From positions 1 to 23,751 of the IMG/VR virus record IMGVR_UViG_3300022925_000178: a DNA stretch of 23,751 nt; one strand, given 5' to 3'. Below are positions 776 through 23,455 of this stretch, piece by piece (within the stretch, counting starts at the first letter, position 1; each line of letters opens with the position of its first letter). The position numbers and the translations under genes were made by a program. Source of the stretch: a virus. The notes under the pieces were generated by a model. The model was not told where the DNA came from and made no database searches. It was given only the letters and a program-made list of their open reading frames with translations.

Positions 776-979
776 TTAAGTATCCCCCACATCAAGGTAA
801 GTTACCTCAATGTTATAAGTGTCGTCGCTTGCGGACATGACCCTATCATATTCTGGGTCTGATGGAGAGATATAGCAATCTTCCGGTGGTGTCGCCTCGC
901 CGTGGGTTTTCTCTGTATTGAGAATTTCTCCGTCAGGAGTAATTGAACAACTGGTGGTGTATTTATACTGTTTCATCAT
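776..979 (-). CDS. Hypothetical 67-residue protein
   Basis: I do not recognise this family. The protein is small and acidic with two cysteines (near residues 11 and 35), no membrane segment and no signal peptide. There are two consecutive ATGs, at 979 and 976. A GATAAATA element at 985-992 ends 5 bases before the first ATG, which puts the expected transcription start on the ATG itself. No Shine-Dalgarno is seen. Its stop codon directly abuts the proposed ATT start of gp16 and it shares gp16's frame. The GGGGGA serving gp16 lies inside its last codons, so the two genes are probably translationally linked. Confidence 0.6.
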   Translation of the reverse strand: MMKQYKYTTSCSITPDGEILNTEKTHGEATPPEDCYISPSDPEYDRVMSASDDTYNIEVTYLDVGDT

Positions 980-984
980 AACAG

Positions 985-992
985 TATTTATC
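985..992 (-). promoter_or_regulatory. T4-type late promoter GATAAATA
   Basis: The minus-strand octamer GATAAATA is one base from the T4 late consensus TATAAATA. It lies 5 bases before the ATG at 979, so the predicted transcript is leaderless. Confidence 0.6.
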
Positions 993-1017
993 AGAATTTA
1001 CTACCTAGATAATGGAT

Positions 1018-1278
1018 TTATCCGCAATACCAACTACGGTAATTGTTGTAGATAGGGCTACTATAAGACTGCGGCGGTATGGCAAAATACAGCGGGCGGC
1101 TGCCGTACTGATCTACGTATACTATCTCACAGTTAACCCAACGTGGTTGAGGATTATAAATTACTACCATGCCTGGTATATATGTACCGTCTGGGTACCT
1201 AGCTGGCTGTGGTTGGGAATAGCCGAGCATAGCTACAAACAAAGTGCCTATAATTAAAGATTTAAGTAGTGTTTTCAT
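1018..1278 (-). CDS. Small exported protein with signal peptide (unknown)
   Basis: An 86-residue protein. Residues 1-21 form a signal peptide: basic MKTLLK followed by a hydrophobic stretch LIIGTLFVAML. The rest is rich in Pro, Tyr and Trp with two cysteines (WVNCE and the C-terminal WYCG), suggesting a small disulfide-bonded periplasmic or envelope domain. Its ATG overlaps the stop of the upstream membrane/coiled-coil gene as ATGA, implying translational coupling. The pairing of a membrane coiled-coil gene with a small exported protein recalls phage i-spanin/o-spanin pairs, but there is no lipobox cysteine after the signal peptide, which argues against a classical o-spanin. Function unknown; export is the only confident statement. 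A plus-strand frame over the same bases is taken as a shadow. Confidence 0.6.
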   Translation of the reverse strand: MKTLLKSLIIGTLFVAMLGYSQPQPARYPDGTYIPGMVVIYNPQPRWVNCEIVYVDQYGSRPLYFAIPPQSYSSPIYNNYRSWYCG

Positions 1279-1628
1279 TGTGTTCCTGGTAGACCTATCA
1301 ATAACATTCTACGTGCCTGAAGGCCGTCTCTTATTTTTATCATGTCGTCATAATTTTGACGTTCTGTGTCGCTGAGGTTAGCTAATCCTTCCTCAGTGTA
1401 TTCTCGTAATTCGTTGTTATAGATAATAATTTGTAAATCAATATCACGTTTTTCAGATTCAATTTGGGCTTCGGTGTCTCGTTTTTCGGAATCAGCAATT
1501 GCTTGTTCTATAACCGATGCCAGTGCTTCTACATCGTTACTTGTAGCTACATTGTCGTATAAGAAATATCCGCCAGTTGCTAATCCTGAAAGTATTCCGA
1601 ATATGATTCCAATTTTATCTATGCTCAT
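1275..1628 (-). CDS. Membrane-anchored coiled-coil protein (spanin- or holin-like candidate)
   Basis: A 117-residue protein starting at the ATG at 1626-1628. A longer frame begins at 1715 inside gp4, but those 29 residues overlap gp4's 3' end. The chosen start sits 5 bases after a GATAAATA element that directly follows the gp4 stop. Residues 6-24 (IGIIFGILSGLATGGYFLY) form one transmembrane segment. Residues about 30-105 are charged and heptad-like (EKRDTEAQIESEKRDIDLQI), consistent with a coiled coil. N-in membrane anchor plus periplasmic coiled coil is the shape of an i-spanin, which helps disrupt the outer membrane at lysis. It overlaps the downstream exported-protein gene by ATGA. Topology is visible; the lysis role is inference. 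Confidence 0.6.
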   Translation of the reverse strand: MSIDKIGIIFGILSGLATGGYFLYDNVATSNDVEALASVIEQAIADSEKRDTEAQIESEKRDIDLQIIIYNNELREYTEEGLANLSDTERQNYDDMIKIRDGLQARRMLLIGLPGTQ

Positions 1629-1633
1629 AATTT

Positions 1634-1641
1634 TATTTATC
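1634..1641 (-). promoter_or_regulatory. T4-type late promoter GATAAATA
   Basis: Minus-strand GATAAATA directly after the gp4 stop codon and 5 bases before the ATG at 1628. It predicts a leaderless transcript for the membrane/coiled-coil gene. Confidence 0.6.
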
Positions 1642-2112
1642 TTATTTTCTACGCTTTTTTGGGATGCGGGGCTTGGGATTACGAGCTTTAGGTTTAGAGA
1701 AAATTTGGTCCTCATTTATTACCTTAAATCGTATTCCTTTACGCTGACACCATTCTTGAGCAGACTGCCACTTTGCGGCATTTACTGCTACGCTTAGTGC
1801 TTGATGTTTTCCTTTTGCGTTCTCTAATGTAGTTTGATTTGCTGGTTTGATTTCTATTAGTTCTACATGCTCAGTGCCAGTTTTATCTACATACTGTATC
1901 ATAAAGTCAGGAACATAATTTGCGTACTTGCCTGTTACCGGATTTCTGTAGGGAATTTTTACGTTTTCACTTGCCCACTTAATTATACTAGGATGGCTAT
2001 CGCAGAATTCCATAAACTTGCGTTCCCATGAGCTTCTGTAGTAAGGTGCTTTTGTGCCTATATACTTGTCCGAGTTCGCGACCTCGTATATAGCTTGCGA
2101 GAAACGGCTCAT
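1642..2112 (-). CDS. gp4: Head completion protein gp4 (PD-(D/E)XK nuclease fold)
   Basis: A 156-residue protein close in length to T4 gp4, which completes DNA-filled heads before tail joining. It has the TnsA-like PD-(D/E)XK nuclease layout: E30 in SSWERKF, D69 in YVPDF and E87-x-K89 in ELIEIKP. The segment SSWERKFMEFCDSHPSIIKW followed by IPYRNPVTGKYANYVPDF is typical of the gp4 family. The C-terminus is very basic (KPKARNPKPRIPKKRRK), consistent with DNA contact. Its ATG overlaps the stop of the upstream 144-residue gene as ATGA, so it is coupled to the tail operon gp19/tube-like/144-residue/gp4. The active-site residues appear intact. Confidence 0.85.
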   Translation of the reverse strand: MSRFSQAIYEVANSDKYIGTKAPYYRSSWERKFMEFCDSHPSIIKWASENVKIPYRNPVTGKYANYVPDFMIQYVDKTGTEHVELIEIKPANQTTLENAKGKHQALSVAVNAAKWQSAQEWCQRKGIRFKVINEDQIFSKPKARNPKPRIPKKRRK

Positions 2113-2543
2113 GGTTTTATTAAAGCAGAGGCTCTTGTGTTGCTATTTACAATAGGAGATATTAATCCTACTCTGCTTCCTGCCGGACGTAAATTGTTCA
2201 TAGCGGTGTAAGCATCTACAGTAAGATTTAATGTGTTACCAGTTACGTCGAAATACTCCAGAGGGTCTATGCCCTGTGTATAAGCTACTTCCATTAACAC
2301 ACTTGTCATAGCATCTGCATTTGGCTTACTGTAGCCTGCTTTAACTAATTTACTGTTTATCATTGCTACCTTAGCAGGGTCGTAGGATTTGCCTTGCGGC
2401 TGTGCAAGTTGACCAAGTATTTCTGAGGATGCTTCCGGAAGAGGAAATTTTATAGTAGCATCTTTTAAATAAGCAACGAGAGTATCGCCTGTTAGCTTAT
2501 AGGATTTTTCGTTACCAAATGTATCGTATATAGAGGAGCTCAT
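2109..2543 (-). CDS. Probable virion protein, 144 residues
   Basis: I do not recognise a named T4 counterpart. The protein is soluble and mixed alpha/beta: an N-terminal beta-like part (SYKLTGDTLVAYLKDATIKF), a helical middle (INSKLVKAGYSKPNADAMTS...LMEVAYTQGIDPLEYFDV) and a C-terminal segment NNLRPAGSRVG. It is stitched between two recognisable genes: its ATG overlaps the stop of the tail-tube-like gene (TAATG), and its own TGA overlaps the gp4 start (ATGA). This tight coupling in the gp19-gp4 operon suggests a structural or assembly role in tail or neck. The role is inferred from context only. Confidence 0.6.
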   Translation of the reverse strand: MSSSIYDTFGNEKSYKLTGDTLVAYLKDATIKFPLPEASSEILGQLAQPQGKSYDPAKVAMINSKLVKAGYSKPNADAMTSVLMEVAYTQGIDPLEYFDVTGNTLNLTVDAYTAMNNLRPAGSRVGLISPIVNSNTRASALIKP

Positions 2544-3481: not shown

Positions 3482-3495
3482 TATTTTCTCCTAGC

Positions 3496-4128
3496 TTAAC
3501 CTGCTGTTGAGCCGCCACCGCCTAGAGTTGAGTCAAAGTCGCTGAACGGATTAATAGCTGTGCTTCTGCCATTGCCATCGTTAGTACCGCTGTAATGAGT
3601 AGCGTTATCGTAACGAATTGACAAAGTAATAATTTGCGATTCGTTAGTGCTGTAATCACCTTCACCATACTGTACATTGTTTAAGAAGCAGCCTTCCAAG
3701 AACCATACTTCAGTAGGTTCTGTGCTTGCGCCATCTAGTACTTCGATTTCCATTTCAAACTTATAGTCGTTTGCCGCAGCCGGTGTAGTCTGCTGGAAGT
3801 GGTTTACTTGACGCTGTAATTGTGCGCCTACCTGTTTTGCAACATTGTTTGAAATATCATCACGAAGTGTAACCTGAATCGCTTCCCAAGTATGTTTCCC
3901 TTGCATATAAATTCTGCTGTTATAGCTATCAACTACAACCTCATCACCTGTGTAATTCGGACGTCCTACACTCTGGATATTCTGTGTTAGCGCAAGAGGT
4001 CGGGCCTCTCCACCTATGCCAATAAAGTTCACCCTAAAGCGATACTTTAATTTTGGCATTAGTATGCCGGCACTACCATCTGCTAACGGTACACCGAATT
4101 TTGATTTAGTTATAATGTTCTCTGCCAT
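3496..4128 (-). CDS. gp19: Tail tube protein gp19
   Basis: A 210-residue protein. gp19 polymerises into the inner tube of the contractile tail inside the gp18 sheath. Recognisable parts are the N-terminal MPKLKYRFRVNFIGIG strand, the loop QSVGRPNYTGDEVVVDSYNS, and the C-terminal YSTNESQIITLSIRYDNATH, all typical of gp19 in marine T4-like phages (T4 gp19 is 163 residues). The C-terminal 30 residues are Gly/Ser/Asn rich. The start is supported by AGGAGAACATAAAA before ATG. A GATAAATA late promoter at 4165-4172 gives a leader of about 31 bases, downstream of the gp18 terminator, so gp19 and gp18 are separately transcribed. The downstream tube-like, 144-residue and gp4 genes follow in one operon. 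Confidence 0.88.
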   Translation of the reverse strand: MAENIITKSKFGVPLADGSAGILMPKLKYRFRVNFIGIGGEARPLALTQNIQSVGRPNYTGDEVVVDSYNSRIYMQGKHTWEAIQVTLRDDISNNVAKQVGAQLQRQVNHFQQTTPAAANDYKFEMEIEVLDGASTEPTEVWFLEGCFLNNVQYGEGDYSTNESQIITLSIRYDNATHYSGTNDGNGRSTAINPFSDFDSTLGGGGSTAG

Positions 4129-4164
4129 TTTTATGTTCTCCTACGAACTTGTTTACTATACAGA

Positions 4165-4172
4165 TATTTATC
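4165..4172 (-). promoter_or_regulatory. T4-type late promoter GATAAATA for gp19 operon
   Basis: Minus-strand GATAAATA in the gap between the gp18 terminator and gp19. The ATG is 36 bases further on, with a Shine-Dalgarno between. Confidence 0.7.
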
Positions 4173-4216
4173 ATTATTAGCCAAAAAAGATAAACTCATG
4201 TTTTAATTCAGCCAAA

Positions 4217-4244
4217 AAGAAAGGGCTGTTGCCAGCCCTTTCTT
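4217..4244 (-). terminator. Rho-independent terminator after gp18
   Basis: A perfect 12-base-pair stem (arms 4217-4228 and 4233-4244) with a 4-base loop. On the minus strand the loop reads GCAA, a GNRA tetraloop, and the stem ends in CTTTCTTTTT, giving a U-run. It ends the gp18 transcript 49 bases after the gp18 stop and just before the gp19 promoter. Confidence 0.85.
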
Positions 4245-4292: not shown

Positions 4293-7076
4293 TTAGCCTG
4301 TTGAGCCCAGAGTGCTCTGGATTCTAATAGGTATGTAGATAAACTCTACTGCCTTAACAGGTTGTATAGCTATATCAATATGTAGCTCGTTGCGATTAAT
4401 ACGCGCAGGTGTATTGTTAGACTCATCACATACTGTAACATAATCAAACAATCCGCGCTGTGTAATCAACTCACTTAAGATTCTGTCAACGACAGTCTTA
4501 GCATTAGTGCGTGTAATCGCATCGTTTGGTTCAAACAAGAACGGACGTACTGCGTCGTCAAGTTGTTCACGAAGGTAAATTACCAAACGAGAAACGTTGA
4601 TACGATCAAGTGCGCTGGATGTAGGATTTAAAGTCTTTTGTCCGAATACGCTAATTCCACGTCCTGGGAATGTTGCAATCGGGTTAACTTTATTTAAATA
4701 CAATGTGTCGCGTTGGCCGTTGTTTAAGCTAGCCGCCACATATTCACTTTCTGCCGCATCTAAATAACCTACACTAGTTACGTTGTTAACTACACCACGT
4801 TGATACCCTGCTGGAGCAAACCACGGGAAAGCAACTTGGTCATTGTACGCAATTGTACGTAATGCCATATGAGATGCCGGTACCATGATGTTTGTTCCAT
4901 CTAGGTTAGTTGTTAAACCACTTGGATAGTAAACTGCCGCTTGACTGCTTGCGCTAACAAGTCCATCTTCGCCGTTTTCTATTGCGTTGTTACTGTTAGT
5001 AGCCCATGCTTGGATATCAGTATCTGAACTGCTTAGTCTAAATGGAGGGTCAATAAGAGCAAACACAGTGTCTTTTCTGTCAACGCTCAAAGTAAGCATT
5101 TCGTCTGTTAGTTCAGGATAACCCGGAACTGCTACTATGTTGAAACGGTTTGTTTCGTTACGAATATCTTCATTTGAGGATACTGCCGATTGCATTGCGC
5201 GAACTACTGCTTTACGCTGTGCTTTTCTTAGCAATATGCCAGAGCCGTCTGCGTTGTTGCCGCTGTAATTTTCCCACAGGCTGTCAGTGTCGTTCCACTG
5301 TTTGACATTACCACCACTTGCTCGATAGTTCCAAGCAAGCATGCCTGTTGGATAAAGTGCCGCACTCGGCGCATCTGCGTCCAGGCTTGCAGTAGTAGTT
5401 CTAAAGTCAGCAAAGAGAATGCCGTCCGGACTACTCTGGTCAGTTTGGTCTACTAGGTTAAAGCTAGCGCCATCATATTTGTAAAGTTTTATGTTTTCAG
5501 TATCAGCACTGTTTATCCAAACATCGCCACTAGCAAGTGCGCTAATGCCATCACTTTGTAAAGTAGGTTCAGTTGCTGAAGTTTGGAAGTCGCCTGTAAA
5601 TGTAACCCAAGTACTACCGTCGTGCTCCAGAAGATCAACATTAGTTGTGCTAATATCTGCATCATACCATAGCTGTCCGTCTGCTGTATCACCGACTGGT
5701 TCTGTTGCTGAGGGATCTATTACTAAGGTAGTAAAGTTACTGGTTGTTCCAGCCGTTAAGTTAATATTCGCTAAACGGAATGTAACGTTAGCAATATCAC
5801 CTTCAGCAAGAGTAATATCTCTGCCGTCAGTGTTAATTAATGTAACTTTTCCAGCAACATTACTTGCACTAAGTTGATCAGAAAACGTAGTTGTTACGTT
5901 TGCCGCAGACAAAGCAGTTTGTATATCAGTAACAACATCATCTACTGAAATATTTCCGTCACTGTCGCTATCTGTTATAATATAAACTGGAATAGCTGTA
6001 GTTGAGTTATTAACATAAATGTTAAATGCTACGTTAGACGCATCGACTAAGCTGTTCGAAAGATCTGTGTCTGTTAATGCCGATGAGCTAGCTACAGTAA
6101 CAGTAGACTCGCCATTCCACTCCTTGAAGTCACACTTAGCGATGAAACTGCTACGATCTGCGTATGATACGCCAGGAACTAATGTCCCTGCCGCTTCAAA
6201 TGCGTCGTATGCTATTGCTGGGGTTTCATAAGCTGGCACCGAAGTTTCGACAAATTGGGCAGATGATGTGCTGTATTCATATACTGCCAGATCTATGCCG
6301 TTATTTGGAGTTGTTGTCTGAAGCATTAAATCTCCAGCAGATAATGGATCACCATTGGATCTTCCATTAGCGGATTGAGGCAGTGTTGTATGCGTAGCAA
6401 ACTGAAAATCACTTGATGTAGCTGATGTCCAGGATCCGCTGCCGATGGCATCCCAGGTGCCTGAGGTTTTTTCATAAAAAGTCAAGCTGTTAGTTGAGTC
6501 GCCTGCGCTATCTGTTGAAACTACAGTATACTGTCCATCGATGCCGTATGCCGCTTTTGGTGTTGCATTAGCATATAAGTTTGTAGAAGTCGCTACAGTA
6601 ACAGTTGCCGGTACCCAGGCAGTTCCGTCCCATTCTTTAAGGCCATATGTACTAGATGCAGTATCAAGCCACACTGTGCCGTCGGCAGGCGCGGCACTTG
6701 GTGCTGTTGCGCTAGATTCTAATTCTGATAAGTCTATATCAGCACGTAATACATAAGCTCTGTTAGAAATTCCTAAAAAGCTGTATGCGGCTACTAAGCC
6801 GTATTCGTTTGTTTCGTCACCGTGTATAGGTGATCCACCTGAAGTCTTAAACGATGGGTTACCAAAATTCTGTAGTAACTCACGTTGACTAGTGATTAAA
6901 TATAAGTTGTTCGCGTTTGCGGCTGTAGTATATGCGGCTGTGGAAGTTCCGTCTGGTGCTGTCTTATCTTGTGCTGTTGCTATTACAATAAGAGGCACTG
7001 TTCCTGCACCAGCAGGTGCATAAAAACTTTCATCAGTTACGCTAATACTTACGCCTGGCGATACTAATGTTGCCAT
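4293..7076 (-). CDS. gp18: Tail sheath protein gp18 (927 residues, with inserted repeats)
   Basis: gp18 forms the contractile sheath around the tail tube. Typical sheath ends are visible: N-terminal LVSPGVSISVTDESFY and C-terminal SRLVIYLREQLDDAVRPFLFEPN with KAVEFIYIPIRIQST, and the conserved core GYPELTDEMLTLSVDRKDTV...ALIDPP (about 652-678). It is much longer than T4 gp18 (659 residues). Most of the excess lies between residues about 124 and 606. That region holds at least four copies of a 35-50-residue module with pattern DGxxWxD...L.E.DGxxWV (124-157, 455-497, 500-548, 563-606) and a weaker copy near 240-280. These variable domains would face outward on the sheath. The start is supported by GGAGAAG before ATG and a GATAAATA promoter at 7113-7120; a terminator follows, so the gene is monocistronic. 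Confidence 0.9.
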   Translation of the reverse strand: MATLVSPGVSISVTDESFYAPAGAGTVPLIVIATAQDKTAPDGTSTAAYTTAANANNLYLITSQRELLQNFGNPSFKTSGGSPIHGDETNEYGLVAAYSFLGISNRAYVLRADIDLSELESSATAPSAAPADGTVWLDTASSTYGLKEWDGTAWVPATVTVATSTNLYANATPKAAYGIDGQYTVVSTDSAGDSTNSLTFYEKTSGTWDAIGSGSWTSATSSDFQFATHTTLPQSANGRSNGDPLSAGDLMLQTTTPNNGIDLAVYEYSTSSAQFVETSVPAYETPAIAYDAFEAAGTLVPGVSYADRSSFIAKCDFKEWNGESTVTVASSSALTDTDLSNSLVDASNVAFNIYVNNSTTAIPVYIITDSDSDGNISVDDVVTDIQTALSAANVTTTFSDQLSASNVAGKVTLINTDGRDITLAEGDIANVTFRLANINLTAGTTSNFTTLVIDPSATEPVGDTADGQLWYDADISTTNVDLLEHDGSTWVTFTGDFQTSATEPTLQSDGISALASGDVWINSADTENIKLYKYDGASFNLVDQTDQSSPDGILFADFRTTTASLDADAPSAALYPTGMLAWNYRASGGNVKQWNDTDSLWENYSGNNADGSGILLRKAQRKAVVRAMQSAVSSNEDIRNETNRFNIVAVPGYPELTDEMLTLSVDRKDTVFALIDPPFRLSSSDTDIQAWATNSNNAIENGEDGLVSASSQAAVYYPSGLTTNLDGTNIMVPASHMALRTIAYNDQVAFPWFAPAGYQRGVVNNVTSVGYLDAAESEYVAASLNNGQRDTLYLNKVNPIATFPGRGISVFGQKTLNPTSSALDRINVSRLVIYLREQLDDAVRPFLFEPNDAITRTNAKTVVDRILSELITQRGLFDYVTVCDESNNTPARINRNELHIDIAIQPVKAVEFIYIPIRIQSTLGSTG

Positions 7077-7112: not shown

Positions 7113-7120
7113 TATTTATC
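7113..7120 (-). promoter_or_regulatory. T4-type late promoter GATAAATA for gp18
   Basis: Minus-strand GATAAATA 36 bases before the gp18 ATG, with a GGAGAAG Shine-Dalgarno in the leader. Confidence 0.7.
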
Positions 7121-7895: not shown

Positions 7896-7903
7896 GATAA
7901 ATA
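7896..7903 (+). promoter_or_regulatory. T4-type late promoter GATAAATA for homing endonuclease
   Basis: Plus-strand GATAAATA 58 bases before the ATG at 7962. The leader carries AAGGAG. It lies back to back with the minus-strand sigma70 promoter. Confidence 0.6.
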
Positions 7904-7961
7904 AAAGTGTAGATCGCGTGTTGGAGCACCATCTACTCTAATACTAGAAAGGAGTATCAGC

Positions 7962-8783
7962 ATGAGTATTTATAACTCTATCAAAAAACATAAAAGATTT
8001 ACCGACGTATTACCGTACACATATTACATTAAACACATACTGTCTAATACCAAATATTATGGTGTTCGTTGGGCAAATAAAGTAAGTCCACTTAGCGATT
8101 TTGGTATAAAATACCATACCTCCGGCAAGTTCAAGGAAGAATTTAAATATCACCCCGAACGATTCGAGTACAGATTATGCTGGACGTTTGACCACAAAGA
8201 TGATGCTATCTTGTATGAGAACAAAATAATAACAAGAGTATACAGAAAAAACGATTGGGCTAATAATAATGCTTATCCTGCGTTTTATAACCAGTCTGGA
8301 CCAAATACTGGCAACAAAGTAACCGAAGAACAAAAAATACTTAGAAGAAAGCAAATAACCGGACGGAGAGGATTTAATAACGGAAGTAGCAATTTTCTAT
8401 TGTTTCCGAATGACCCAAAAGCAAAATTGCTAGATTCGGGCTATACACAAGCGTTTAAAAATAAAGTAACTGCTTCGGCGAAGAACCGGCCTCCACGGAC
8501 ACAAGAATATAAAGAAAACATGTCAAGAAGTTGTAAGGGAAAGAAAGTATCAGATACTACTAAAGAAAGAATGAAGATTTCTAATAGCCAAGACGCAGTA
8601 GGCAGGTCTTGGTATAATGACGGGGCTAAAAATTATCGGCTAACGCCAGACGATAAAAGACGAAAAGTGTTATCGAAAGGACGGTTGTTATCTGAAAATC
8701 ACAGAGAAAAAATCATAAAGCACAATAAATCAGAAGGGCAAAGACGGGCCGTTAGCGTAGCTAGGACTAGTGCTACCCGATAA
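7962..8783 (+). CDS. Free-standing GIY-YIG homing endonuclease
   Basis: A 273-residue protein. Residues 18-95 carry a GIY-YIG-type nuclease domain of the kind common in phages: PYTYYIKHI (18-25), KYYGVRWANK (31-40) and a candidate catalytic Glu86 in LYENKII. The C-terminal half is basic and has two copies of a DNA-binding-like motif: GRRGFNNGSSNFLLFPND (134-151) and GRSWYNDGAKNYRLTPDD (214-231). NUMOD3-like helices sit between and around them (NKVTEEQKILRRKQITG; GKKVSDTTKERMKISNS). Such enzymes cut DNA at gene-specific sites and spread themselves. It is opposite in strand to its neighbours and its last 11 bases overlap the 3' end of gp13, as expected of an inserted selfish gene. AAGGAG lies 7 bases before ATG. 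Confidence 0.78.
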   Translation: MSIYNSIKKHKRFTDVLPYTYYIKHILSNTKYYGVRWANKVSPLSDFGIKYHTSGKFKEEFKYHPERFEYRLCWTFDHKDDAILYENKIITRVYRKNDWANNNAYPAFYNQSGPNTGNKVTEEQKILRRKQITGRRGFNNGSSNFLLFPNDPKAKLLDSGYTQAFKNKVTASAKNRPPRTQEYKENMSRSCKGKKVSDTTKERMKISNSQDAVGRSWYNDGAKNYRLTPDDKRRKVLSKGRLLSENHREKIIKHNKSEGQRRAVSVARTSATR

Positions 8784-9534
8784 TGAAGCCGAGTGGGAAA
8801 TTGCCCTCTTCCATGTTGTGTACTTGTTCCTTAAGTGCTTCCAGTTCTGCAACGGCTTCTGCTTTTAGAGCTTCACCATTAAGTTGGATATTTCCGCCTG
8901 CGCCGGGTAATCCGCTTTGGTACTTGCTACGTGCTTCGCCGAGCATATACTTAGACATTGCCAATGAGTAATTAGCTAACCAAGGATTAGCATAAACATC
9001 TCTCAACAAAACACTCTCAGGGATGAAATTGTTTACTACTGCTAACACTTCTTCTGTATGTCTTATATTTCTAAGTATTTTTAACTTCTTAGTATTTCTA
9101 TTCCAGTTAAAGTCGTATTCGCTACCGAATATTCTACTAATTGTTTCTTTGTACTGCGCAAATGCGTCAAATACCGCAAGACCACCAATCTGGCCTGCCT
9201 GAAGCATGTACATATTGTTAAATGCTACATCAAATGGATCGAAGTTTGTACCGCCGCCACTGTTAGTGCCGATGCCTCGTCTGTAAAGACGCTGTACTTC
9301 CATAACCTCATCCGGAAAGGTGTATTCTGTTACACCTGCAATAGTGCTAAAAAATACTACACTTTCCTCAGTGCTACCGCTACTGGTTTGCCTGTAGACT
9401 GCTAATGCTTTATCAATAGCAACATCGTAATGTTGTCGGTCCAGTTCAACGTCTACCATATCGTCGGCTAACCGCAATCGTAATTCTTTAATAAGTTCTT
9501 CTCGGCTTAAGTAGCCGATCTGATTAATAGGCAT
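8773..9534 (-). CDS. gp13: Neck protein gp13 (head closure)
   Basis: A 253-residue protein (T4 gp13 is 309). gp13 and gp14 close the packaged head and form the platform for tail joining. The N-terminal helical pattern REELIKELRLRLADDMVDVELD followed by HYDVAIDKALAVYRQ is typical of head-closure proteins of marine T4-like phages. So are EYTFPDEVMEVQRLYRRGIG and the helical C-terminal YSLAMSKYMLGEARSKY. The start is supported by GGAGAAA before ATG and a GATAAATA late promoter at 9559-9566 that overlaps the stop of the previous gene. Its partner gp14 is encoded 1.5 kb away on the opposite strand, an unusual split of a normally adjacent pair. gp13 rather than another connector protein is likely but not certain. 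Confidence 0.75.
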   Translation of the reverse strand: MPINQIGYLSREELIKELRLRLADDMVDVELDRQHYDVAIDKALAVYRQTSSGSTEESVVFFSTIAGVTEYTFPDEVMEVQRLYRRGIGTNSGGGTNFDPFDVAFNNMYMLQAGQIGGLAVFDAFAQYKETISRIFGSEYDFNWNRNTKKLKILRNIRHTEEVLAVVNNFIPESVLLRDVYANPWLANYSLAMSKYMLGEARSKYQSGLPGAGGNIQLNGEALKAEAVAELEALKEQVHNMEEGNFPLGFIIG

Positions 9535-9558: not shown

Positions 9559-9566
9559 TATTTATC
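9559..9566 (-). promoter_or_regulatory. T4-type late promoter GATAAATA for gp13
   Basis: Minus-strand GATAAATA overlapping the TGA of the 381-residue gene and 24 bases before the gp13 ATG. It lets gp13 be expressed late although the upstream pair has an early-type promoter. Confidence 0.7.
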
Positions 9567-11032: not shown

Positions 11033-11040
11033 GATAAATA
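11033..11040 (+). promoter_or_regulatory. T4-type late promoter GATAAATA for gp14 operon
   Basis: Plus-strand GATAAATA 27 bases before the gp14 ATG. The leader contains GAGG. It likely drives gp14, the M15 peptidase and gp15. Confidence 0.7.
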
Positions 11041-11067: not shown

Positions 11068-12129
11068 ATGCCACGTTTAAGTCTCTGGAACCCAATAAAA
11101 ACGAACGATTTTAGCTTTATAGACAGAATTGTTGGTGAACATTTGTATGCTGGCGGCACTGGTGTGCTTGTACATAAGTATTTGGGTGCTAATGACCAAC
11201 CTGACGTAAATGATCCAACTAGGCCAGCAACCGCAGGCACAGACGATCCTACATTTATACAAGATTTACTATTCTTAGAAAACAGAGACCGCAAGTATGA
11301 TACTACTGTATACGAAATGCGCGGGCAGTACAATATACAAGATAATGATGCGTACGATTTAACACAGTTTGGTTTATTTTTAGCAAACGGTACGCTGTTT
11401 ATGAATTTCCATATAGAAAGTATGTTCGAATCATTAGGCAGAAAACTTATGCCTGGTGATGTTATTGAACTTCCTCATCTACGTGACGATATTTTGTTAG
11501 GTAGTGACGAAGCCATAAACGGATTTTATGTAATTACAGATGGCGCTAGGCCAGCCGAAGGTTATGATCCACGCTGGTGGCCACATCTTTGGAGAGTTAA
11601 GTTAGGTCCTATTACAGACAGCCAGGAATACAGAGATATTCTTGGCACTGGTGAGAACGAGGAAGATTTACGTAATCTTATTAGTACTTACGCAGACGAC
11701 ATTGCTATCAATGATGCTATCTTAGCCGCGGCAGAACTCGAAGTTCCATACGATCCGCAATATAGAGAAACTGCACATTTATTTTACGATCCAGAAGTTC
11801 CAGATAAGCCTGTAGTAGATTTTTTCTCTGGAGACGGTAATCCTCCGAATGGTACTGCTGTTGTAGGCACAGGTACTACTTTCCCAACAAGCGGTGTCGT
11901 AGATGGCGATTACTTTTTACGTACAGATTTTGAGCCAGACAGATTATTTAGAAAATCCGGTACACGTTGGATTTATGTTGAAACTGATACACGTGACGTT
12001 TGGGCATCTGCTAATAAACTACTTACAACATTTGTCAACAACGACAATACAACAACAAACACAGACGGTACTACTGCTCCTGAGAAAACTAATCTCAGCA
12101 AAGTTGTATTACCTAAAACAGATAATTGA
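11068..12129 (+). CDS. gp14: Neck protein gp14
   Basis: gp14 joins gp13 in the neck between head and tail. This 353-residue protein shows the marine gp14 signature FMNFHIESMFESLGRKLMPG (111-130) then DVIELPHLRDD (131-141), and the helical segment around residues 185-225. It is longer than T4 gp14 (256 residues). The extra C-terminal part (about 258-304) contains a module GVVDGDYFLRTDFEPDRLFR with SGTRWIYV, of the same DGxxxxxTD...L.R..G..W.Y kind as the repeats in gp18. The final 40 residues are Asn/Thr rich. A late promoter at 11033-11040 and GAGG before ATG support the start. Its TGA lies 8 bases before the ATG of the M15 peptidase. Confidence 0.82.
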   Translation: MPRLSLWNPIKTNDFSFIDRIVGEHLYAGGTGVLVHKYLGANDQPDVNDPTRPATAGTDDPTFIQDLLFLENRDRKYDTTVYEMRGQYNIQDNDAYDLTQFGLFLANGTLFMNFHIESMFESLGRKLMPGDVIELPHLRDDILLGSDEAINGFYVITDGARPAEGYDPRWWPHLWRVKLGPITDSQEYRDILGTGENEEDLRNLISTYADDIAINDAILAAAELEVPYDPQYRETAHLFYDPEVPDKPVVDFFSGDGNPPNGTAVVGTGTTFPTSGVVDGDYFLRTDFEPDRLFRKSGTRWIYVETDTRDVWASANKLLTTFVNNDNTTTNTDGTTAPEKTNLSKVVLPKTDN

Positions 12130-14483: not shown

Positions 14484-14491
14484 GTTAAATA
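14484..14491 (+). promoter_or_regulatory. Late-promoter variant GTTAAATA
   Basis: Plus-strand GTTAAATACTATT matches the T4 extended late consensus TATAAATACTATT in its last ten bases, and sits exactly 5 bases before the Nudix ATG (leaderless layout). Confidence 0.5.
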
Positions 14492-14496: not shown

Positions 14497-14919
14497 ATGA
14501 CTATAGCCGCAGGCGTTGTCTTTTTAGCTAAAGACACAGGACGCTGTTTACTACAATTAAGAAAATCTGAAAAACGTTTCAAGCATACTTGGGGATTCTG
14601 GGGCGGCACATTAGAAGCAAACGAAACACCCTATGATGCTATTAAGCGTGAGCTAGGTGAGGAAATAGGATTTGTTCCTGAACTTACTAAACTCAATCCT
14701 ATAGACATATATCAAAGTAGAGATCAAAAGTTTTACTATTACAGTTTTGTGTATGTAGTAGACGAAGAATTTACTCCTATTCTAAATGAAGAAAGCGCAG
14801 GCTATGCGTGGGTTGACATTGGCGTTTGGCCACAGCCTTTACACGCTGGCGCAAAAACTACTCTTAAGCAAAACAAAGGTACAGAAAAACTACATACTAT
14901 ACTTGCTATTAATTCTTAA
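14497..14919 (+). CDS. Nudix hydrolase
   Basis: A 140-residue protein with a complete Nudix box at residues 37-59 (G-x5-E-x7-REL-x-EE-x-GF; the REL-x-EE part is RELGEEIGF). Nudix enzymes split a nucleoside diphosphate linked to another group, such as Ap3A, ADP-ribose or oxidised dNTPs; the preceding GRCLLQLRKSEKRFKHTW and following YYYSFVYVV are ordinary for the family. T4 encodes one (NudE), but this gene is placed after gp15 in the structural region. The ATG lies 5 bases after a late-promoter-like TTAAATA and has no Shine-Dalgarno, suggesting a leaderless late mRNA. The substrate cannot be read from sequence. Confidence 0.85.
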   Translation: MTIAAGVVFLAKDTGRCLLQLRKSEKRFKHTWGFWGGTLEANETPYDAIKRELGEEIGFVPELTKLNPIDIYQSRDQKFYYYSFVYVVDEEFTPILNEESAGYAWVDIGVWPQPLHAGAKTTLKQNKGTEKLHTILAINS

Positions 14920-14925
14920 TAAATA
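14918..14925 (+). promoter_or_regulatory. Late-promoter variant AATAAATA
   Basis: Plus-strand AATAAATA overlapping the Nudix stop codon and 5 bases before the ATG at 14931. Confidence 0.45.
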
Positions 14926-14930: not shown

Positions 14931-15560
14931 ATGAAGAAAGGTGAAGTGATAAACTTCGATGTACTTCAGATACAAAGCGCACTAGACAAATACCAAAAGA
15001 CAAACACTCTCCCAAAACTTTTATTACATCGTATGTATACCTTAGACGACATCCTGAGACTACATAGCGAGCTGTCTCCGAGACATAAGGATATAGCCGA
15101 TAATTTAAAAGATAATTTTGACCGTGTAGTTGACCGTACTGTCAAGATGCTAAGGGGAACTCTTACTAGAGAGTATAAAGATGTAATGGATAATTTGTCT
15201 ACGACACATAGTAGTTTTATTTTTTCTAGCATAAGCAAGAAATATAGATCAGCTATAAACCCAGTAAGAGCTTTGTATTACGAATTGCGAGAAGTTGCTA
15301 AAAACTATAATCCAGAGAATGAATATCATCATTGGTTGATAGAAGTTGTCTCGGATATAAATTATAAAACAATTATTCTTGATGCGTTGAGGAAGGATAT
15401 TTCGCGACTAGAATATATCATAAAAACCTATCATATTCCTATCGTTACTTTTTCTAAGAAAGTACCACTAGAACTGTTTCACGCTCGTCAAACAGTAGAT
15501 GATTTCGAAACGTATTATACAGCGTTTAGGAAGTTTGACAGAAGTAAAATTATATTATAA
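14931..15560 (+). CDS. Hypothetical helical protein (209 residues)
   Basis: Not recognised. The protein is almost entirely helical and charged, with repeated Leu/Ile heptad-like spacing (DDILRLHSELSPRHKDIADN; DRVVDRTVKMLRGTLTREYK; DALRKDISRLEYIIKTYH), and no membrane segment or signal peptide. ATG 14931 lies 5 bases after AATAAATA and lacks a Shine-Dalgarno. An in-frame GTG at 14946 follows AAAGG and is an alternative start (204 residues). It ends the plus-strand block, and its last 6 bases overlap the 3' end of the convergent gene at 15555. Function unknown. Confidence 0.6.
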   Translation: MKKGEVINFDVLQIQSALDKYQKTNTLPKLLLHRMYTLDDILRLHSELSPRHKDIADNLKDNFDRVVDRTVKMLRGTLTREYKDVMDNLSTTHSSFIFSSISKKYRSAINPVRALYYELREVAKNYNPENEYHHWLIEVVSDINYKTIILDALRKDISRLEYIIKTYHIPIVTFSKKVPLELFHARQTVDDFETYYTAFRKFDRSKIIL

Positions 15561-16241
15561 GATTTTAATCTTACCTAACAGGTTCTTATCAAAATCAATG
15601 CTAGCTTGACTGGCTGCTTTTAACATGTTGTTAAGCAGGCTAGCTTGTTTTCGTGACAGTTTATTAGGACTGTTAGTTAGAGATTCGTTAATAATGTCAG
15701 TAGGTGTTTGGGTAGGCTTAGTTTTATATTTTAGCGATTCTGCTACCAGCTTTGCGATCTTGTATTGTTTCGCACTATCAATCGGTTTAGCTTTTACAGT
15801 TTGTTTTACAGTTTGCGTAGTTGTAACTGTAGCTGGGTGTTCAGCCGTTGTTACAGATTGTTCTACCGGCGCAGATTCGCTTACTTTCATTTTGTTAATA
15901 GATACAGATGGTTTTTCTTTTGGTTCTACACTGTCAACTACTTTAGCTTCGCTGACTGATACTGGCATTTTAAATTCTATGGTTTCACTAATAGGCATGA
16001 AGTAATACTCGTCTACCATAATTTCTAGCTTACACTCATATGTGCCAGCTTCTAGTAAACTCTCTAATTTAGGGATACAAAACTTAACAGAACCGTTCTC
16101 TAATAGACCAGTAAAGCCGATCTCTTTATCCTCGGTTACAATGCAGAATCGTGTTTTCGCATTGTTGCTGTTTGCACCCGAAACTGCTACTGAAAACTCC
16201 AGGTCGTTTTGTTGATTTAAGTTTAGACTGGTTATTGCCAT
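15555..16241 (-). CDS. Virion-associated protein candidate, beta domain plus helical tail (228 residues)
   Basis: Three parts are visible. Residues 1-95 are a beta-sandwich-like domain (DLEFSVAVSGANSNNAKTRF, GSVKFCIPKLESLLEAGTYE, CKLEIMVDEYYFMPISETI). Residues 96-155 are a low-complexity Val/Thr/Lys/Pro linker. Residues 156-228 are helical (QYKIAKLVAESLKYK; SRKQASLLNNMLKAASQA). Marine T4-like phages often carry a protein of this shape among structural genes, but I know no function. A GATAAATA promoter at 16273-16280 and GGATGAAAA before ATG support late expression. It converges on the 209-residue gene with a 6-base overlap. Confidence 0.62.
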   Translation of the reverse strand: MAITSLNLNQQNDLEFSVAVSGANSNNAKTRFCIVTEDKEIGFTGLLENGSVKFCIPKLESLLEAGTYECKLEIMVDEYYFMPISETIEFKMPVSVSEAKVVDSVEPKEKPSVSINKMKVSESAPVEQSVTTAEHPATVTTTQTVKQTVKAKPIDSAKQYKIAKLVAESLKYKTKPTQTPTDIINESLTNSPNKLSRKQASLLNNMLKAASQASIDFDKNLLGKIKIL

Positions 16242-16271: not shown

Positions 16272-16652
16272 TTATTTATCTGTTTTATCAATAATTTCTG
16301 CCTTCACACTCACGTTAGGTTGTCTTACTTTCTTCAAAAATGCGTAAGCTCTTGCTGTAATTGCGTGTGCTATGCTGTTTAAGAACTTAACTACTACGTT
16401 CACTTTCTTACTTTTATCTACTATATATTCTCTTTCCCACCACATATCTTTTAAAGCTACACGTACATGGATTTTGTATCGAGGTAGGCGACCTTCCGTG
16501 GAGCCGACCGGGCCGCCTTTTCCGGGCAGTTCCTCAATAGTAATATCTATTATTTTAAGGAAGCCTAAGACAGCAAGTATTTTAGGGTTACATGCGTTAA
16601 CACCTTCTGTTGCTATGTTATAGTGAAAGGGCTTGTTAGTGCCGGAGGCCAT
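16272..16652 (-). CDS. Hypothetical protein (126 residues)
   Basis: Not recognised. It is a compact, basic, soluble protein with alternating strand-like segments (ILAVLGFLKIIDITIEELP, RYKIHVRVALKDMWWEREYI) and a helix near residues 88-108 (VVKFLNSIAHAITARAYAFL). It starts 1 base after the stop of the 740-residue fibre gene, with GAGGG within the fibre gene's last codons as a possible Shine-Dalgarno, so it is translated from the fibre operon. Its position could suit a fibre assembly factor, but nothing in the sequence shows that. Confidence 0.6.
   Translation of the reverse strand: MASGTNKPFHYNIATEGVNACNPKILAVLGFLKIIDITIEELPGKGGPVGSTEGRLPRYKIHVRVALKDMWWEREYIVDKSKKVNVVVKFLNSIAHAITARAYAFLKKVRQPNVSVKAEIIDKTDK
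16273..16280 (-). promoter_or_regulatory. T4-type late promoter GATAAATA
   Basis: Minus-strand GATAAATA formed by the last codons of the 126-residue gene (GAT AAA TAA), 31 bases before the ATG at 16241. Confidence 0.65.
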
Positions 16653-19610: not shown

Positions 19611-20063
19611 TTATTGCTCTAATGATAGACCCGCTGCCTTAACGACAGTTTCTAACTGTTTAACTCTTTTTTGTTCTGTTTGTAATACTACTGCGTTCTC
19701 TTGTATTATTTCATTCATCTTTGTCATTAATTGATGATTAATATTTTTTTGAACAGTAGCTTGCGCATCAGCGTTCTTTACATCTTCTTTTAAATTGTCT
19801 ACTTTTACTAGCAATTCATTACGTTCATCTTGTAGCAGTTTAGCCGCATGATTCATGGCACTTGCTAGTTTGTGCATATACCGTGATTGTTCTTTTTGTG
19901 GGAGATTTTTAAATTCATCTTCTACGCTGATAAGTGGAGCACGATAGTTATATTCTATTACACCCTTAGCCTCTTCAAGACTAATTTCCTGGGTCTCGTT
20001 TTCTGTAGTTTCATCGATTTCTATAACATTTGCGTCGATGATATTAGTGTTATTTTCTTCCAT
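19611..20063 (-). CDS. Coiled-coil protein (150 residues)
   Basis: The first 45 residues are acidic and disordered-like (NVIEIDETTENETQEISLEE). Residues about 70-145 form a long coiled coil (KLLQDERNELLVKVDNLKED; HQLMTKMNEIIQENAVVLQT; QKRVKQLETVVKAAG). No enzyme motif is seen. It is the first gene after the GATAAATA promoter at 20096-20103 and heads the operon that continues into the 237- and 740-residue fibre proteins. A fibre assembly chaperone or scaffold is a fair guess, from context only. Confidence 0.6.
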   Translation of the reverse strand: MEENNTNIIDANVIEIDETTENETQEISLEEAKGVIEYNYRAPLISVEDEFKNLPQKEQSRYMHKLASAMNHAAKLLQDERNELLVKVDNLKEDVKNADAQATVQKNINHQLMTKMNEIIQENAVVLQTEQKRVKQLETVVKAAGLSLEQ

Positions 20064-20095
20064 TCTCAGTCTTCCTCGAGTAAGGTTGTTATTAC

Positions 20096-20103
20096 TATTT
20101 ATC
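20096..20103 (-). promoter_or_regulatory. T4-type late promoter GATAAATA for fibre operon
   Basis: Minus-strand GATAAATA 32 bases before the ATG at 20063, in the gap after the 620-residue gene. Confidence 0.7.
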
Positions 20104-20137
20104 AGAAAGATAAGAATGTTATTTTAGGATTGGATTG

Positions 20138-22000
20138 TTATTGGTCTAGAACCATTTGGACGTTTATAGATAGCCCATTAGTAGTACTCACAGTGCCTGT
20201 AATTGGGAATGTTTTAAAGAATGGTGCTGAGGACGATTTGCGAACCCAGCCTGTAACAGGTTGTGCTACACTAATTGAACGTGTGTCGTCTGCGATACCG
20301 CCTGCGGTTGTTAACTCGTTAATTAATATGCCTGTAGCAATCGGTGTTCCTGTTGCTGTGCCATCGTTAACTACTGTGTAAGTGTAAGTGTTTACGCCGG
20401 TTACTGTAATCGTTTTGGCACCATTGTAACCAGACTGATTAAGTCCTGTTATCTTTACTTGATCGCCAGTTGTCATACCGTGCGCCGTATGCGTAACTGT
20501 TGCGGTTGTTGCTGTTACTGAAACAGACACAGAATCTTCAAACGGTAGCGCACCAGTTCCATCTGCCGCTTCTAGATATACCCTAGCATTTTGTAAAAGC
20601 GAGCCATTATTGTCTCGTACTGTAACAGTGGTTGTTACTGGAGCAACTACTAATATTGTTGTGCCTGAGGTGTCTAAAACCGTAGGTGAAGTACCAGTTA
20701 CGTTTATTGTTATTGTATTGCCTGTTGAATTTTCTATAGCGGCATCTGTAGATGCATCAGCACCATAACCCACAAAAGAAACTTCAGTTAAAAATTGCGA
20801 TGAAGGTTCACCCGGGCCGACAATTTCAATAGCGTGACCATCCGAGAATTCAAACGTTGAATTTGTTACACCGCTAATATTACTTAATGTCATGAACGGC
20901 ACATCGTCAGCAGTATTTGCCGCAACAACACCTATTCGTGTTTGCCGTGAACCCTCAGTAAATGCCGAAGTACAGTCAATATAGTTAGTACTAACAACTT
21001 CAACTACTGAACTATCTAATTGGAAATCCCCACCGTGAATAAACGAGCCGCCATAAAAACCAACAAGGTCTAAATTCGCATCATCCATATCAACATCATA
21101 TCGCACACCAGCTGTTGCCGCCGACACAATACCACCTTGAGAACCTGTAGCATCTGCGCCAGTCCCAGATTTAATCCCGAACGTAACATTAGTAGTCCCG
21201 CCACTTCCGCCTAAAGCAGAAATCTTATACAAATCTGCCGCCACAAATTCCTGGTTATCCCACAACCAAATAAAGTTAGTGTCCAAGAATTCATGAGTAG
21301 TCGTGTCGTTGATGCCGAATTGTATCGGAGTACTAATAACCCATGCTCCTCCAGGACCTGGTCTAAATGTGCCTGCGCTAGTCCCTAGCTGAGTGAAAAT
21401 ATCCGAACTATCCCACGGCGTGGTACCACCGTTGCGACCTTCAACAATAATACCAGGAACGCCATCAGCTAGTGAATAGATAGCATCAACCCAACAGTTA
21501 TCGCCAACTTTTGTCATTGGAACTGTTACGCCAGCAATACCAATATGTTGGATTGCTGTAATTGCTGGTGGTGTTCCGCCTGTGTTGCTCGGTGAGGCTT
21601 GCGCTGCCACCACGTCAACGGCAAATTGCACCCAACCACCATTAATCGCTGTGGGCCAGTTATCATTGCCGCCAACATATACTTCAAAAAAGTCACCTTG
21701 GGCTGGGCCGCAAAATCTAACAGCCATCCCGCCTAATGCTTGCGTTTCAAGTAGTCCCACAATACCACAGTTAACCCATATATAAATATGCGTATCGGAG
21801 AGGTCAATAGTAGTACCTGCATTCCACAGAATAGTACGCACAGAGTTGTTTAGCTGGTCAGCAATGGAGGCCGCACCCTCAATAAACACTTCTATCGCTT
21901 GTGCTGGCGAAGTTGACCCTACCCAAGTGCCTGTAATACCGTCCGTGAGATTCTCAGCATCGGCTAGTTGGGTTCTATTGTCAGTTATTTGGTTAGCCAT
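20138..22000 (-). CDS. Modular fibre/structural protein with nested FCCH-like domain
   Basis: A 620-residue beta-rich protein without signal peptide or membrane helix. Residues 1-430 resemble a fibre body with many Gly/Thr/Asn-rich strands and repeated aromatic patches (HIYIWVNCGIVGLLETQALG, FEVYVGGNDNWP). Residues about 455-490 (TTTVTVRDNNGSLLQNARVY, LEAADGTGALPFEDS) and 560-620 form one Ig-like domain. Between them, about 491-557, lies a module of the FCCH type (THTAHGMTTGDQVKITG, YNGAKTITVTGVNTYTYTV) found in many phage structural proteins, so this is a domain within a domain. Its start overlaps the end of the SPOUT-like gene by 8 bases. Likely a distal tail or fibre component. Confidence 0.65.
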   Translation of the reverse strand: MANQITDNRTQLADAENLTDGITGTWVGSTSPAQAIEVFIEGAASIADQLNNSVRTILWNAGTTIDLSDTHIYIWVNCGIVGLLETQALGGMAVRFCGPAQGDFFEVYVGGNDNWPTAINGGWVQFAVDVVAAQASPSNTGGTPPAITAIQHIGIAGVTVPMTKVGDNCWVDAIYSLADGVPGIIVEGRNGGTTPWDSSDIFTQLGTSAGTFRPGPGGAWVISTPIQFGINDTTTHEFLDTNFIWLWDNQEFVAADLYKISALGGSGGTTNVTFGIKSGTGADATGSQGGIVSAATAGVRYDVDMDDANLDLVGFYGGSFIHGGDFQLDSSVVEVVSTNYIDCTSAFTEGSRQTRIGVVAANTADDVPFMTLSNISGVTNSTFEFSDGHAIEIVGPGEPSSQFLTEVSFVGYGADASTDAAIENSTGNTITINVTGTSPTVLDTSGTTILVVAPVTTTVTVRDNNGSLLQNARVYLEAADGTGALPFEDSVSVSVTATTATVTHTAHGMTTGDQVKITGLNQSGYNGAKTITVTGVNTYTYTVVNDGTATGTPIATGILINELTTAGGIADDTRSISVAQPVTGWVRKSSSAPFFKTFPITGTVSTTNGLSINVQMVLDQ

Positions 22001-22409
22001 TTCTTATATGCCACATTGCCACTAAATAAGCAGAATAAGAATACATTGTTGTATCCTCGTCGGTTGGTATCTCTACAATATTAGCTGGTGTCTTATCTCC
22101 TAAATGGTCTTTCATTAAGTGTGTATTGTTTGGGCCGAATACAAGGATACAATCCTCTGGCGCGTTAAAATCTTGTAATTGTAAATCAGGTGTAAAATTT
22201 CGCGCATTTTTCGGAGCAAATACATATATCGGAAAGTCTTCTGTTACTTCGGACATATCAGCTATATGCGGTGCATCTTTTAATTTTTTACTAGCATCGC
22301 ATTTATACCCACTCATTACATATACTTTGTCCGACTTAAAATGAGATAACGCATAATCAAAATAGTTCTCATCTTCGTATGAGTCGGCACATAATACAGT
22401 TACAATCAT
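21993..22409 (-). CDS. SpoU/TrmL-like (SPOUT) methyltransferase candidate
   Basis: A 138-residue protein, near the size of the smallest SPOUT enzymes such as E. coli TrmL (157 residues), which 2'-O-methylates tRNA wobble bases. The C-terminal half follows TrmL in order and spacing: DCILVFGPNNTHL (87-98) where TrmL has DYLMFGPETRGL, then VEIPTDEDTTMYSYSAYLVA (112-131) where TrmL has IPM...S-N-L-S-N-A-V. The knot region therefore seems present. But the N-terminal NTGN motif is not seen, the Glu of FGPE is Asn, and the SxNxSN motif is degraded, so activity is doubtful. GGAGAAAG precedes ATG; the ATG overlaps the stop of the sulfotransferase-like gene (TAATG). Confidence 0.45.
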   Translation of the reverse strand: MIVTVLCADSYEDENYFDYALSHFKSDKVYVMSGYKCDASKKLKDAPHIADMSEVTEDFPIYVFAPKNARNFTPDLQLQDFNAPEDCILVFGPNNTHLMKDHLGDKTPANIVEIPTDEDTTMYSYSAYLVAMWHIRNG

Positions 22410-22900
22410 TATTTACTTTCTCCATTAAAAAGTTGATTAAATTCTTCAACTGTTAATTCATCGTTGTTGTCAATTATATAATTATATGTTTCTAATTCTT
22501 TTTCTAGCTCACCGTTGGTGTACACATCAGCCCATTTGTCCTCACCTTTCGATTCTTCTTCTTCATACTCAAAATATTTATATAGATTTTCGAATAATAT
22601 ATATCGAACTGCTTTATGCGCAAAATGGTCTAAGTAAGGCGCTGTGTGTTGCTCGACATATGGTCCTGTTACATTGTTTCCGTCATATAAAAATCTCATG
22701 CCAGATTCGTATCGGGCTTGCGGGTTTCTAAGAATAACTACTAAACTTTGATAGCTGTCTATAGTTGAAATAGCAGTTTCGTATTGGTACCCGCTACAAG
22801 CAATTCGATGTTTGCTACAAAAATCTCTAAGGGAATTATTACCGGCTTGTGGTACAGTTATAAGTAACGCGCCATTATGTTGTGCTATTGTGTATTTCAT
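22409..22900 (-). CDS. Sulfotransferase-like protein A (163 residues)
   Basis: Both PAPS-binding signatures of sulfotransferases can be seen. The 5' loop is LLITVPQAGNNSLRDFC (12-28; compare PKxGTxSL). The 3' phosphate motif is VVILRNPQARYESGMRFL (54-71), with Arg58 and Ser66 in the expected R-(D/N)-P-x-x-R-x-x-S-G order. The protein is shorter than typical sulfotransferases (usually 200-300 residues), so the acceptor part is reduced. The C-terminal YTNGELEKELETYNYIID and LTVEEFNQLFN match the next gene's C-terminus, so the two are paralogues. A GATAAATA lies 6 bases before ATG with no Shine-Dalgarno. Acceptor unknown. Confidence 0.7.
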   Translation of the reverse strand: MKYTIAQHNGALLITVPQAGNNSLRDFCSKHRIACSGYQYETAISTIDSYQSLVVILRNPQARYESGMRFLYDGNNVTGPYVEQHTAPYLDHFAHKAVRYILFENLYKYFEYEEEESKGEDKWADVYTNGELEKELETYNYIIDNNDELTVEEFNQLFNGESK

Positions 22901-22901
22901 A

Positions 22902-23441
22902 TTAAGTATTTATCACTTTAAAATTGTCGAGTATTTCATCAAATTCCTCAAGCGTTAGACATGATGTATGTTGTATAATGCGATTACATGCTTCTAATTC
23001 GTTCTCTAATTCGTTATTTGTATATGGGTTGTGTATTTCCGGCATTTCGTCGTATAATACAGTTGCGTGACCTGCTCTCGGGAAAAATATAGGCATATCT
23101 ACCCAAGCAATATATTTGGTAATATATTTTTCTATTGGGCTTAGATAGGGATAAGTGTGCGTTATAATATGCACGTTGTCTAATAAATTTTCAGTAGGTA
23201 GACGATTGATTCTATTTAATATTTTTATACCCGATTCATATCTATCAATTGGGTCTCTTAATATTACAATTACGTCTTTTGCTTTTTTAAATTCTAATAT
23301 TGCATCCGCAGTTGAATATGCTCCGCGATTTGTTGTCTTATCATCGAAGAATTTATTGAATGAATGTGAACCGACACGATATGTTGTTACGAATATTGTT
23401 TGGTCTAAATTTGCTAATAGGTATTGTAAGTTTGTGTCCAT
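22902..23441 (-). CDS. Sulfotransferase-like protein B (179 residues)
   Basis: Paralogue of the following gene. The 5' PAPS loop is TYRVGSHSFNKFF (20-32, RxGSxS type) and the 3' phosphate motif is IVILRDPIDRYESGIKIL (57-74) with Arg62, Arg67 and Ser70. The C-terminus (YTNNELENELEACNRIIQ; LTLEEFDEIL) is shared with protein A. A small segment of about 25 residues around DMPIFFPRAGHATVLYDE is specific to this copy. The ATG lies 6 bases after AATAAATA, which follows the terminator at 23460-23485, so it begins its own transcription unit. It is flanked by fibre-type genes, so a virion or host-surface glycan is a conceivable substrate, but this is inference. Confidence 0.72.
   Translation of the reverse strand: MDTNLQYLLANLDQTIFVTTYRVGSHSFNKFFDDKTTNRGAYSTADAILEFKKAKDVIVILRDPIDRYESGIKILNRINRLPTENLLDNVHIITHTYPYLSPIEKYITKYIAWVDMPIFFPRAGHATVLYDEMPEIHNPYTNNELENELEACNRIIQHTSCLTLEEFDEILDNFKVINT
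22907..22914 (-). promoter_or_regulatory. T4-type late promoter GATAAATA
   Basis: Minus-strand GATAAATA within the last codons of sulfotransferase-like protein B, 6 bases before the ATG of protein A. Confidence 0.6.
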
Positions 23442-23447
23442 GTGTTG

Positions 23448-23455
23448 TATTTATT
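23448..23455 (-). promoter_or_regulatory. Late-promoter variant AATAAATA
   Basis: Minus-strand GAATAAATA just after the terminator and 6 bases before the ATG at 23441. Confidence 0.5.

Follow-up and report, generated by a model that had tools for sequence, protein, structure and literature searches.

Leaderless and leadered placements of predicted T4-type late promoters in a group of T4-like giant phages

The window analysed here is a complete viral metagenome record of 23,751 bases, and an 89-kb contig carries the same phage at 100% identity. By its sequence, this phage is a member of a group of distant T4-like giant phages: its tail tube protein is about 48% identical to that of Pseudomonas phage PA5oct and 52% identical to that of Sinorhizobium phage Phosso, its gene order matches that of PA5oct, with which it also has proteins in common, and a relative's large terminase has 59% identity to its PA5oct counterpart. 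The comparisons reported below draw on 58 non-redundant relatives (1.10 Mb, with DNA at least 88% identical masked) of 33–42% GC; the relative contigs were fetched via structural genes, so that the sample leans toward the structural region.

In six places in the window, an octamer of the form NATAAATA or a variant of it ends 5 or 6 bases before an ATG. On the minus strand, GATAAATA occurs at 985–992 and 1634–1641, in each case 5 bases before the start codon, at 979 (67-aa ORF, 776–979) and 1628 (117-aa ORF, 1275–1628), and both genes are assigned to the predicted leaderless class. On the plus strand, the variant GTTAAATA at 14484–14491 is followed by CTATT and the ATG at 14497 of a Nudix hydrolase gene (14497–14919; spacing 5; likewise leaderless class), and AATAAATA at 14918–14925 lies 5 bases before the ATG of a 209-aa gene (14931–15560), in whose family 6 of 10 members are leaderless. 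The remaining two elements, on the minus strand, have a spacing of 6: GATAAATA at 22907–22914 precedes the ATG at 22900 (ORF 22409–22900) and falls inside the paralogue lying upstream, at its 3′ end, and AATAAATA at 23448–23455 precedes the ATG at 23441 (ORF 22902–23441). Region 22409–23441 thus holds two tandem paralogues of unassigned function, each with a close element at spacing 6.

The initial annotation had reported these six elements, 5 or 6 bases before ATGs that have no Shine-Dalgarno sequence (SD), and all six lie where it placed them. Five match NATAAATA strictly, the exception being 14497 with GTTAAATA, and shuffled sequence rarely does as well: at the 26 fixed gene starts of the window, five strict matches at spacing 5–6 compare with a mean of 0.03 in shuffles, and none of 20,000 shuffles reaches five. 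When up to two mismatches are allowed, six starts compare with 0.96 (p = 0.00015). At none of the six genes does an SD match reach 3 bases. The octamer is not enriched across the window as a whole, so the signal is one of placement.

Six further genes in the window have the octamer at a greater distance. These are the tail tube gene (3496–4128; element at 4165–4172, minus strand, spacing 36) and the tail sheath gene (4293–7076; 7113–7120, minus strand, spacing 36), which are leaderless in 0 of 30 and 0 of 28 members of their families, respectively; the gene for a gp13-like neck protein (Ad2), with GATAAATA at 9559–9566 on the minus strand, 24 bases before the ATG at 9534; the gene for a virion protein of PHROG 11591, with GATAAATA at 11033–11040 on the plus strand, 27 bases before the ATG at 11068; and the genes at 15555–16241 (element at 16273–16280, minus strand, spacing 31) and 19611–20063 (20096–20103, minus strand, spacing 32). 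At nearly all of these starts (4128, 7076, 9534, 11068, 16241 and 20063) an SD of at least 4 bases is present, and the spacings of 24, 27, 31, 32, 36 and 36 agree with the earlier description of the core and fibre genes of the window as leadered, with SDs, at 24–36 bases. The Ad2 gene, although leadered here, is leaderless in 21 of 28 family members, and the PHROG 11591 family includes five leaderless and three leadered genes.

It should also be noted that two genes in the window have ATT where their orthologues have a conserved ATG, namely the dNMP kinase gene (7832–7830, minus strand) and a homologue of PA5oct gp283 (775–773, minus strand), as placed by 20 and 22 orthologue comparisons, respectively. 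Among about 450 conserved starts compared, ATT is confined to these two; each has an SD-like GGAGG or GGGGG directly upstream, and extra genes adjoin both.

One of the genes in the window is recognizably mobile. A homing-endonuclease-like gene (7962–8783, plus strand; PHROG 314, E 1.2e-7) has been inserted at the junction of Ad2 and dNMP kinase, two genes that in most relatives directly adjoin each other (gap of −1 to 2 bases). It is preceded by a late-promoter element at 7896–7903 and by a hairpin, GTAGAT..ATCTAC, at 7909–7936 (both plus strand), the first base of which is the predicted +1. This gene, the most obviously mobile one in the window and one on which the initial annotation was silent, is leadered. 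The same layout, NATAAATA-AARGT-GTAGTT-CGC-[variable hairpin]-AACTACTCTAAYGC-AAGGAG-CAGC-ATG, occurs repeatedly: at least 119 viral contigs have it with GATAAATA and at least 120 with another first base. The 60 bases upstream of the octamer have no conservation. An ORF begins about 69 bases downstream in 147 of 156 cassettes. Among the nucleases behind the cassette are GIY-YIG-like ones, two HNH types and one restriction-like nuclease, with HNH_3, HNH, NUMOD3 and endonuclease PHROG matches among the cassette relatives; C-terminal modules such as NUMOD3 are common to many of them, which indicates that the cassette nucleases are modular and not wholly unrelated.

The hairpin covaries across cassettes. 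Among 40 distinct hairpins, standard pairs fill 98% of pair cells, two-sided changes number 50 where shuffles give 10.4, and the covariation score is 0.348 against 0.078 (reached in 0 of 500 shuffles); structures slid along the sequence pair at 54% or less. A 5′-terminal hairpin would be expected to shield a message from 5′-end-dependent decay. The SD of the window copy, at 7948–7954, lies outside the hairpin, so that the covering of the ribosome site known from I-TevI is not seen here. In most cassettes (loci L416 onward) TATTTA occurs 5 bases after CAGC, whatever the frame of the ATG (78 of 84). An I-TevI-like long-range pairing between this motif and the transcribed ATAAATA was considered but is not supported, as the outer base lacks covariation and the predicted accessibility barely differs, at 0.43 compared with 0.46, when the element is shuffled. 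A scan of 50,697 phage records gave no match to the cassette at the sensitivity used, no cultured phage searched carrying it, and none was found in the 84,980 bacterial and archaeal species genomes of GTDB. Searches of Rfam gave no gathering-level match in the window, and the cassette matched only a snoRNA, by chance. A portable promoter unit for mobile genes is present in the window, though in a different form from the close element: it is the putative late promoter with its covarying 5′-terminal hairpin ahead of the gene at 7962.

The distance from octamer to start codon was tabulated in the 58 relatives as the distance to the first ATG of an ORF of at least 50 codons, the genome-wide histogram that had been proposed with the initial annotation. 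The distribution is bimodal with a sharp peak: for GATAAATA there are 58 cases at 5, four at 6, three at 4, none at 7–15 and a broad spread from 16 onward. The octamers AATAAATA, CATAAATA and TATAAATA likewise peak at 5 (28, 23 and 9 cases), and permuted octamers average 0.46 at this spacing. The peak is also found in single long relatives, with 17 at 5 and 7 at 6 in a 340-kb genome (G015) and 26 at 5 in a 250-kb one (G016), and two others have 10 and 9 at 5 (G018 and G019). In cassette-carrying contigs the histogram of the leaderless class is noisier, and that histogram was left out of the analysis. One clade, represented by a 50-kb contig with two copies of the endonuclease cassette, favours a spacing of 4 (four of five close sites). 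Among known phages, PA5oct has a small peak only (5 of 145 octamers at spacing 5), spacing 5 is unoccupied in T4 at every ATG that opens an ORF of at least 40 codons, and Syn9 and P-SSM2 have none and two at spacing 5, respectively.

The two spacing classes differ in their translation signals, with an SD of at least 4 bases at 2% of leaderless and 90% of leadered genes. The start codons at spacing 5 are 118 ATG and 4 GTG; a preference for AUG only was considered as a test of leaderless translation and set aside as not discriminating, since this ratio is too near the general rate (367 ATG, 16 GTG and 5 TTG at conserved starts overall).

A cultured phage, HTVC008M of Pelagibacter, exhibits the same arrangement. 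It contains nine NATAAATA-N5-ATG sites, compared with one in a reversed control, and all nine fall on annotated gene starts (6280, 7562, 19456, 31132, 49760, 75559 and 142360, with 16007 and 18916 on the minus strand). Its leaderless-type genes include those for the tail tube cap, baseplate wedge, baseplate initiator, tape measure and DNA end protector, and the close element is missing at its sheath, tube and major head genes, where strong SDs are present. HTVC008M-like contigs, with copies of HTVC008M itself left out, have 14 sites at 5 and 19 at 6.

The position of the presumed RNA start is apparently common to both classes. Six bases past the octamer, 76% of 147 leadered promoters have A, and 80% have a pyrimidine (T or C) just before that position; at the 58 spacing-5 cases, T precedes the A of the ATG in 95%, and this A lies at the same offset as the leadered start base. 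A purine is also favoured at this offset in the leadered promoters of T4. Homologues of gp55 are encoded in three relatives (G002, G015 and G016; 45% identity to PA5oct), so that both a gp55-type sigma factor and a TATAAATA-like octamer, here NATAAATA before structural genes of window and relatives, are found in the group; the window phage's own 89-kb contig, a fragment, gave no gp55 homologue. Because of the pyrimidine/A at the shared offset, the hairpin that starts there and the encoded gp55-like sigma factor, RNA of the close class very likely starts on the A of the ATG. At spacing 6 (22900 and 23441), the message may have a leader of a single base, or transcription may begin one base later.

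We now turn to which genes carry the close element. Predicted proteins were grouped into families, and the number of contigs per family was used to separate core from rare; orthologous sites are not independent, the 127 leaderless genes belonging to 34 families. Leaderless members make up 18 of 24 for the large terminase, 11 of 26 for head closure and 18 of 24 for the homologue of window gene 290–589. Single large genomes have the same mix, with leaderless genes for virion proteins, a baseplate wedge protein among them, and small size does not define the leaderless class, whose genes extend to 1,553 aa. Both placements occur within five families, Ad2 and the homologues of PA5oct gp278, gp320, gp262 and gp282. 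Leaderless late promoters also occur on CHASE2-type adenylate/guanylate cyclase genes of one family (33; G015, 249449–251521; G016, 83346–85415); HTVC008M has a related cyclase beside curli genes, and another relative (G012) encodes a curlin-repeat protein.

These data are best explained by T4-type late promoters used in two placements, the close one leaderless, with placement set per gene and per lineage and not as a badge of mobile genes, a reading to which we assign a probability of roughly 0.82. A gp55-like sigma factor would read the octamer of both classes. In the close class, the octamer ends 5 (sometimes 6) bases before the ATG, RNA would be made from the A of the ATG and the mRNA would be leaderless; in the leadered class, the same promoter 16–60 bases upstream would yield an mRNA leader with an SD. 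The bimodal spacing, the loss of the SD in one class only, the pyrimidine/A start, the use by core genes and the changes of class within families can be read directly from the sequences, and from them we infer the actual RNA 5′ ends and the translation of leaderless messages.

The initial annotation had gone further, proposing that mobile accessory genes carry the close spacing with them as a built-in unit of expression, all six in the window being small accessory genes. Four of them (979, 1628, 22900 and 23441) indeed have no relatives among the other contigs. However, the Nudix family of 14497 occurs in 15 contigs and the family of 14931 in 10, which are not rare. In the comparison of presence and absence of orthologues with spacing class, two classes do exist, but rare families are not enriched in leaderless genes: families in at least 10 contigs have 87 leaderless and 81 leadered genes and those in fewer than 3 contigs 16 and 32 (Fisher p = 0.03), which runs opposite to the proposal, core families being if anything more often leaderless than rare ones. 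In the relatives the leaderless placement extends to core genes, both classes coexist within five families, and the endonuclease gene, which is clearly mobile, has a leader. As a general rule the mobile unit is already refuted, and we regard it as very improbable, although a weaker accessory trend could exist in a sample without the structural core. Thus, the two classes and their leaderless reading are well supported, by bimodality, start dinucleotide and SD loss, and the role as a marker of mobile accessory genes falls because core genes are leaderless.

The octamer before the ATG might instead be an A-rich translation signal that replaces the SD, with RNA starting further upstream. A-rich regions can aid ribosome binding, and the SD is missing exactly in the close class. 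Yet the same octamer and start dinucleotide also occur 16–60 bases upstream, before leaders with SDs, the spacing fixed at 5 suits a transcription start and a gp55-like sigma factor is encoded, which together make this explanation unlikely. It might also be thought that AT-rich DNA and the choice of starts produce the pattern by chance or as an annotation artefact, given genomes of 33–42% GC and an octamer unenriched in the whole window; but permuted octamers and shuffles are nearly without a peak and the nine HTVC008M sites all fall on independently annotated starts, controls by which this explanation is already refuted and its chance reduced to almost nil.

Under the two-placement reading, spacing may set translation strength, a hypothesis suggested by the tube and sheath genes, which are never leaderless, and the terminase and neck genes, which usually are. 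By the copy numbers of T4, tube and sheath are the highest-copy tail proteins, and packaging and neck proteins are made in small amounts. We tentatively propose, at somewhat less than even odds, that promoter-to-start distance is an evolvable gene-by-gene dial, with low-copy genes leaderless and high-copy genes given a leader and an SD, and that, separately, the hairpin cassette has spread among homing nucleases of uncultured phages as a portable unit.

Late promoters of the T4 type are textbook material, and in T4 the leaderless placement is absent; this marine group uses it routinely for core genes. Such routine use alters late-gene calling in these genomes and supplies natural orthologue pairs in which one gene has a leader and the other has none. 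In a study of pelagimyophages, the methods used for cyanophages could not predict late promoters (PMC7029224); the close placement offers a testable reason for this. With the endonuclease cassette as a query, mobile nucleases can be sought in uncultured phages, and its structured RNA belongs to no Rfam family. A search of the open-access literature turned up neither leaderless late genes in T4-like phages nor the cassette.

Finally, these promoters resemble known systems in some respects and differ from them in others. They resemble the late promoters of T4 (TATAAATA, served by gp55, gp33 and gp45) in the octamer, the start about 6 bases downstream (here predicted), the purine start and the gp55-like sigma factor of relatives, and differ in that the first octamer base is mostly G in this group and that T4 is without spacing-5 octamers. 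A search of the relatives with HTVC008M gp33 gave no homologue; this protein is short and divergent (T4 gp33 itself gives E 0.09), and most contigs are fragments. The leader of the endonuclease cassette is similar to those of T4 I-TevI, segB and mobE and of seg43 of Aeromonas phage 25, in which a late promoter and a leader hairpin precede an endonuclease gene (PMC2988022), and seg43 is also similar in that its hairpin lies upstream of the SD without covering it. Unlike in those cases, one conserved promoter-leader-start unit is here common to different nuclease types; in the same review, seven free-standing endonucleases are described as promoterless cassettes that rely on upstream promoters (PMC2988022). 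PA5oct matches the window in gene order and proteins, with only a small spacing-5 peak, and HTVC008M, a smaller phage placed in the Kyanoviridae, has the leaderless placement in common with the window. According to the paper on phage AR9, phage transcripts in general are often leaderless (PMC5312081). Mycobacterial leaderless genes likewise have an mRNA starting at the start codon, without an SD and beside leadered genes (PMC4633059), as is predicted here from sequence; in the present case, however, the genes are those of a virus, the late promoter is virus-specific and the class varies between orthologues.
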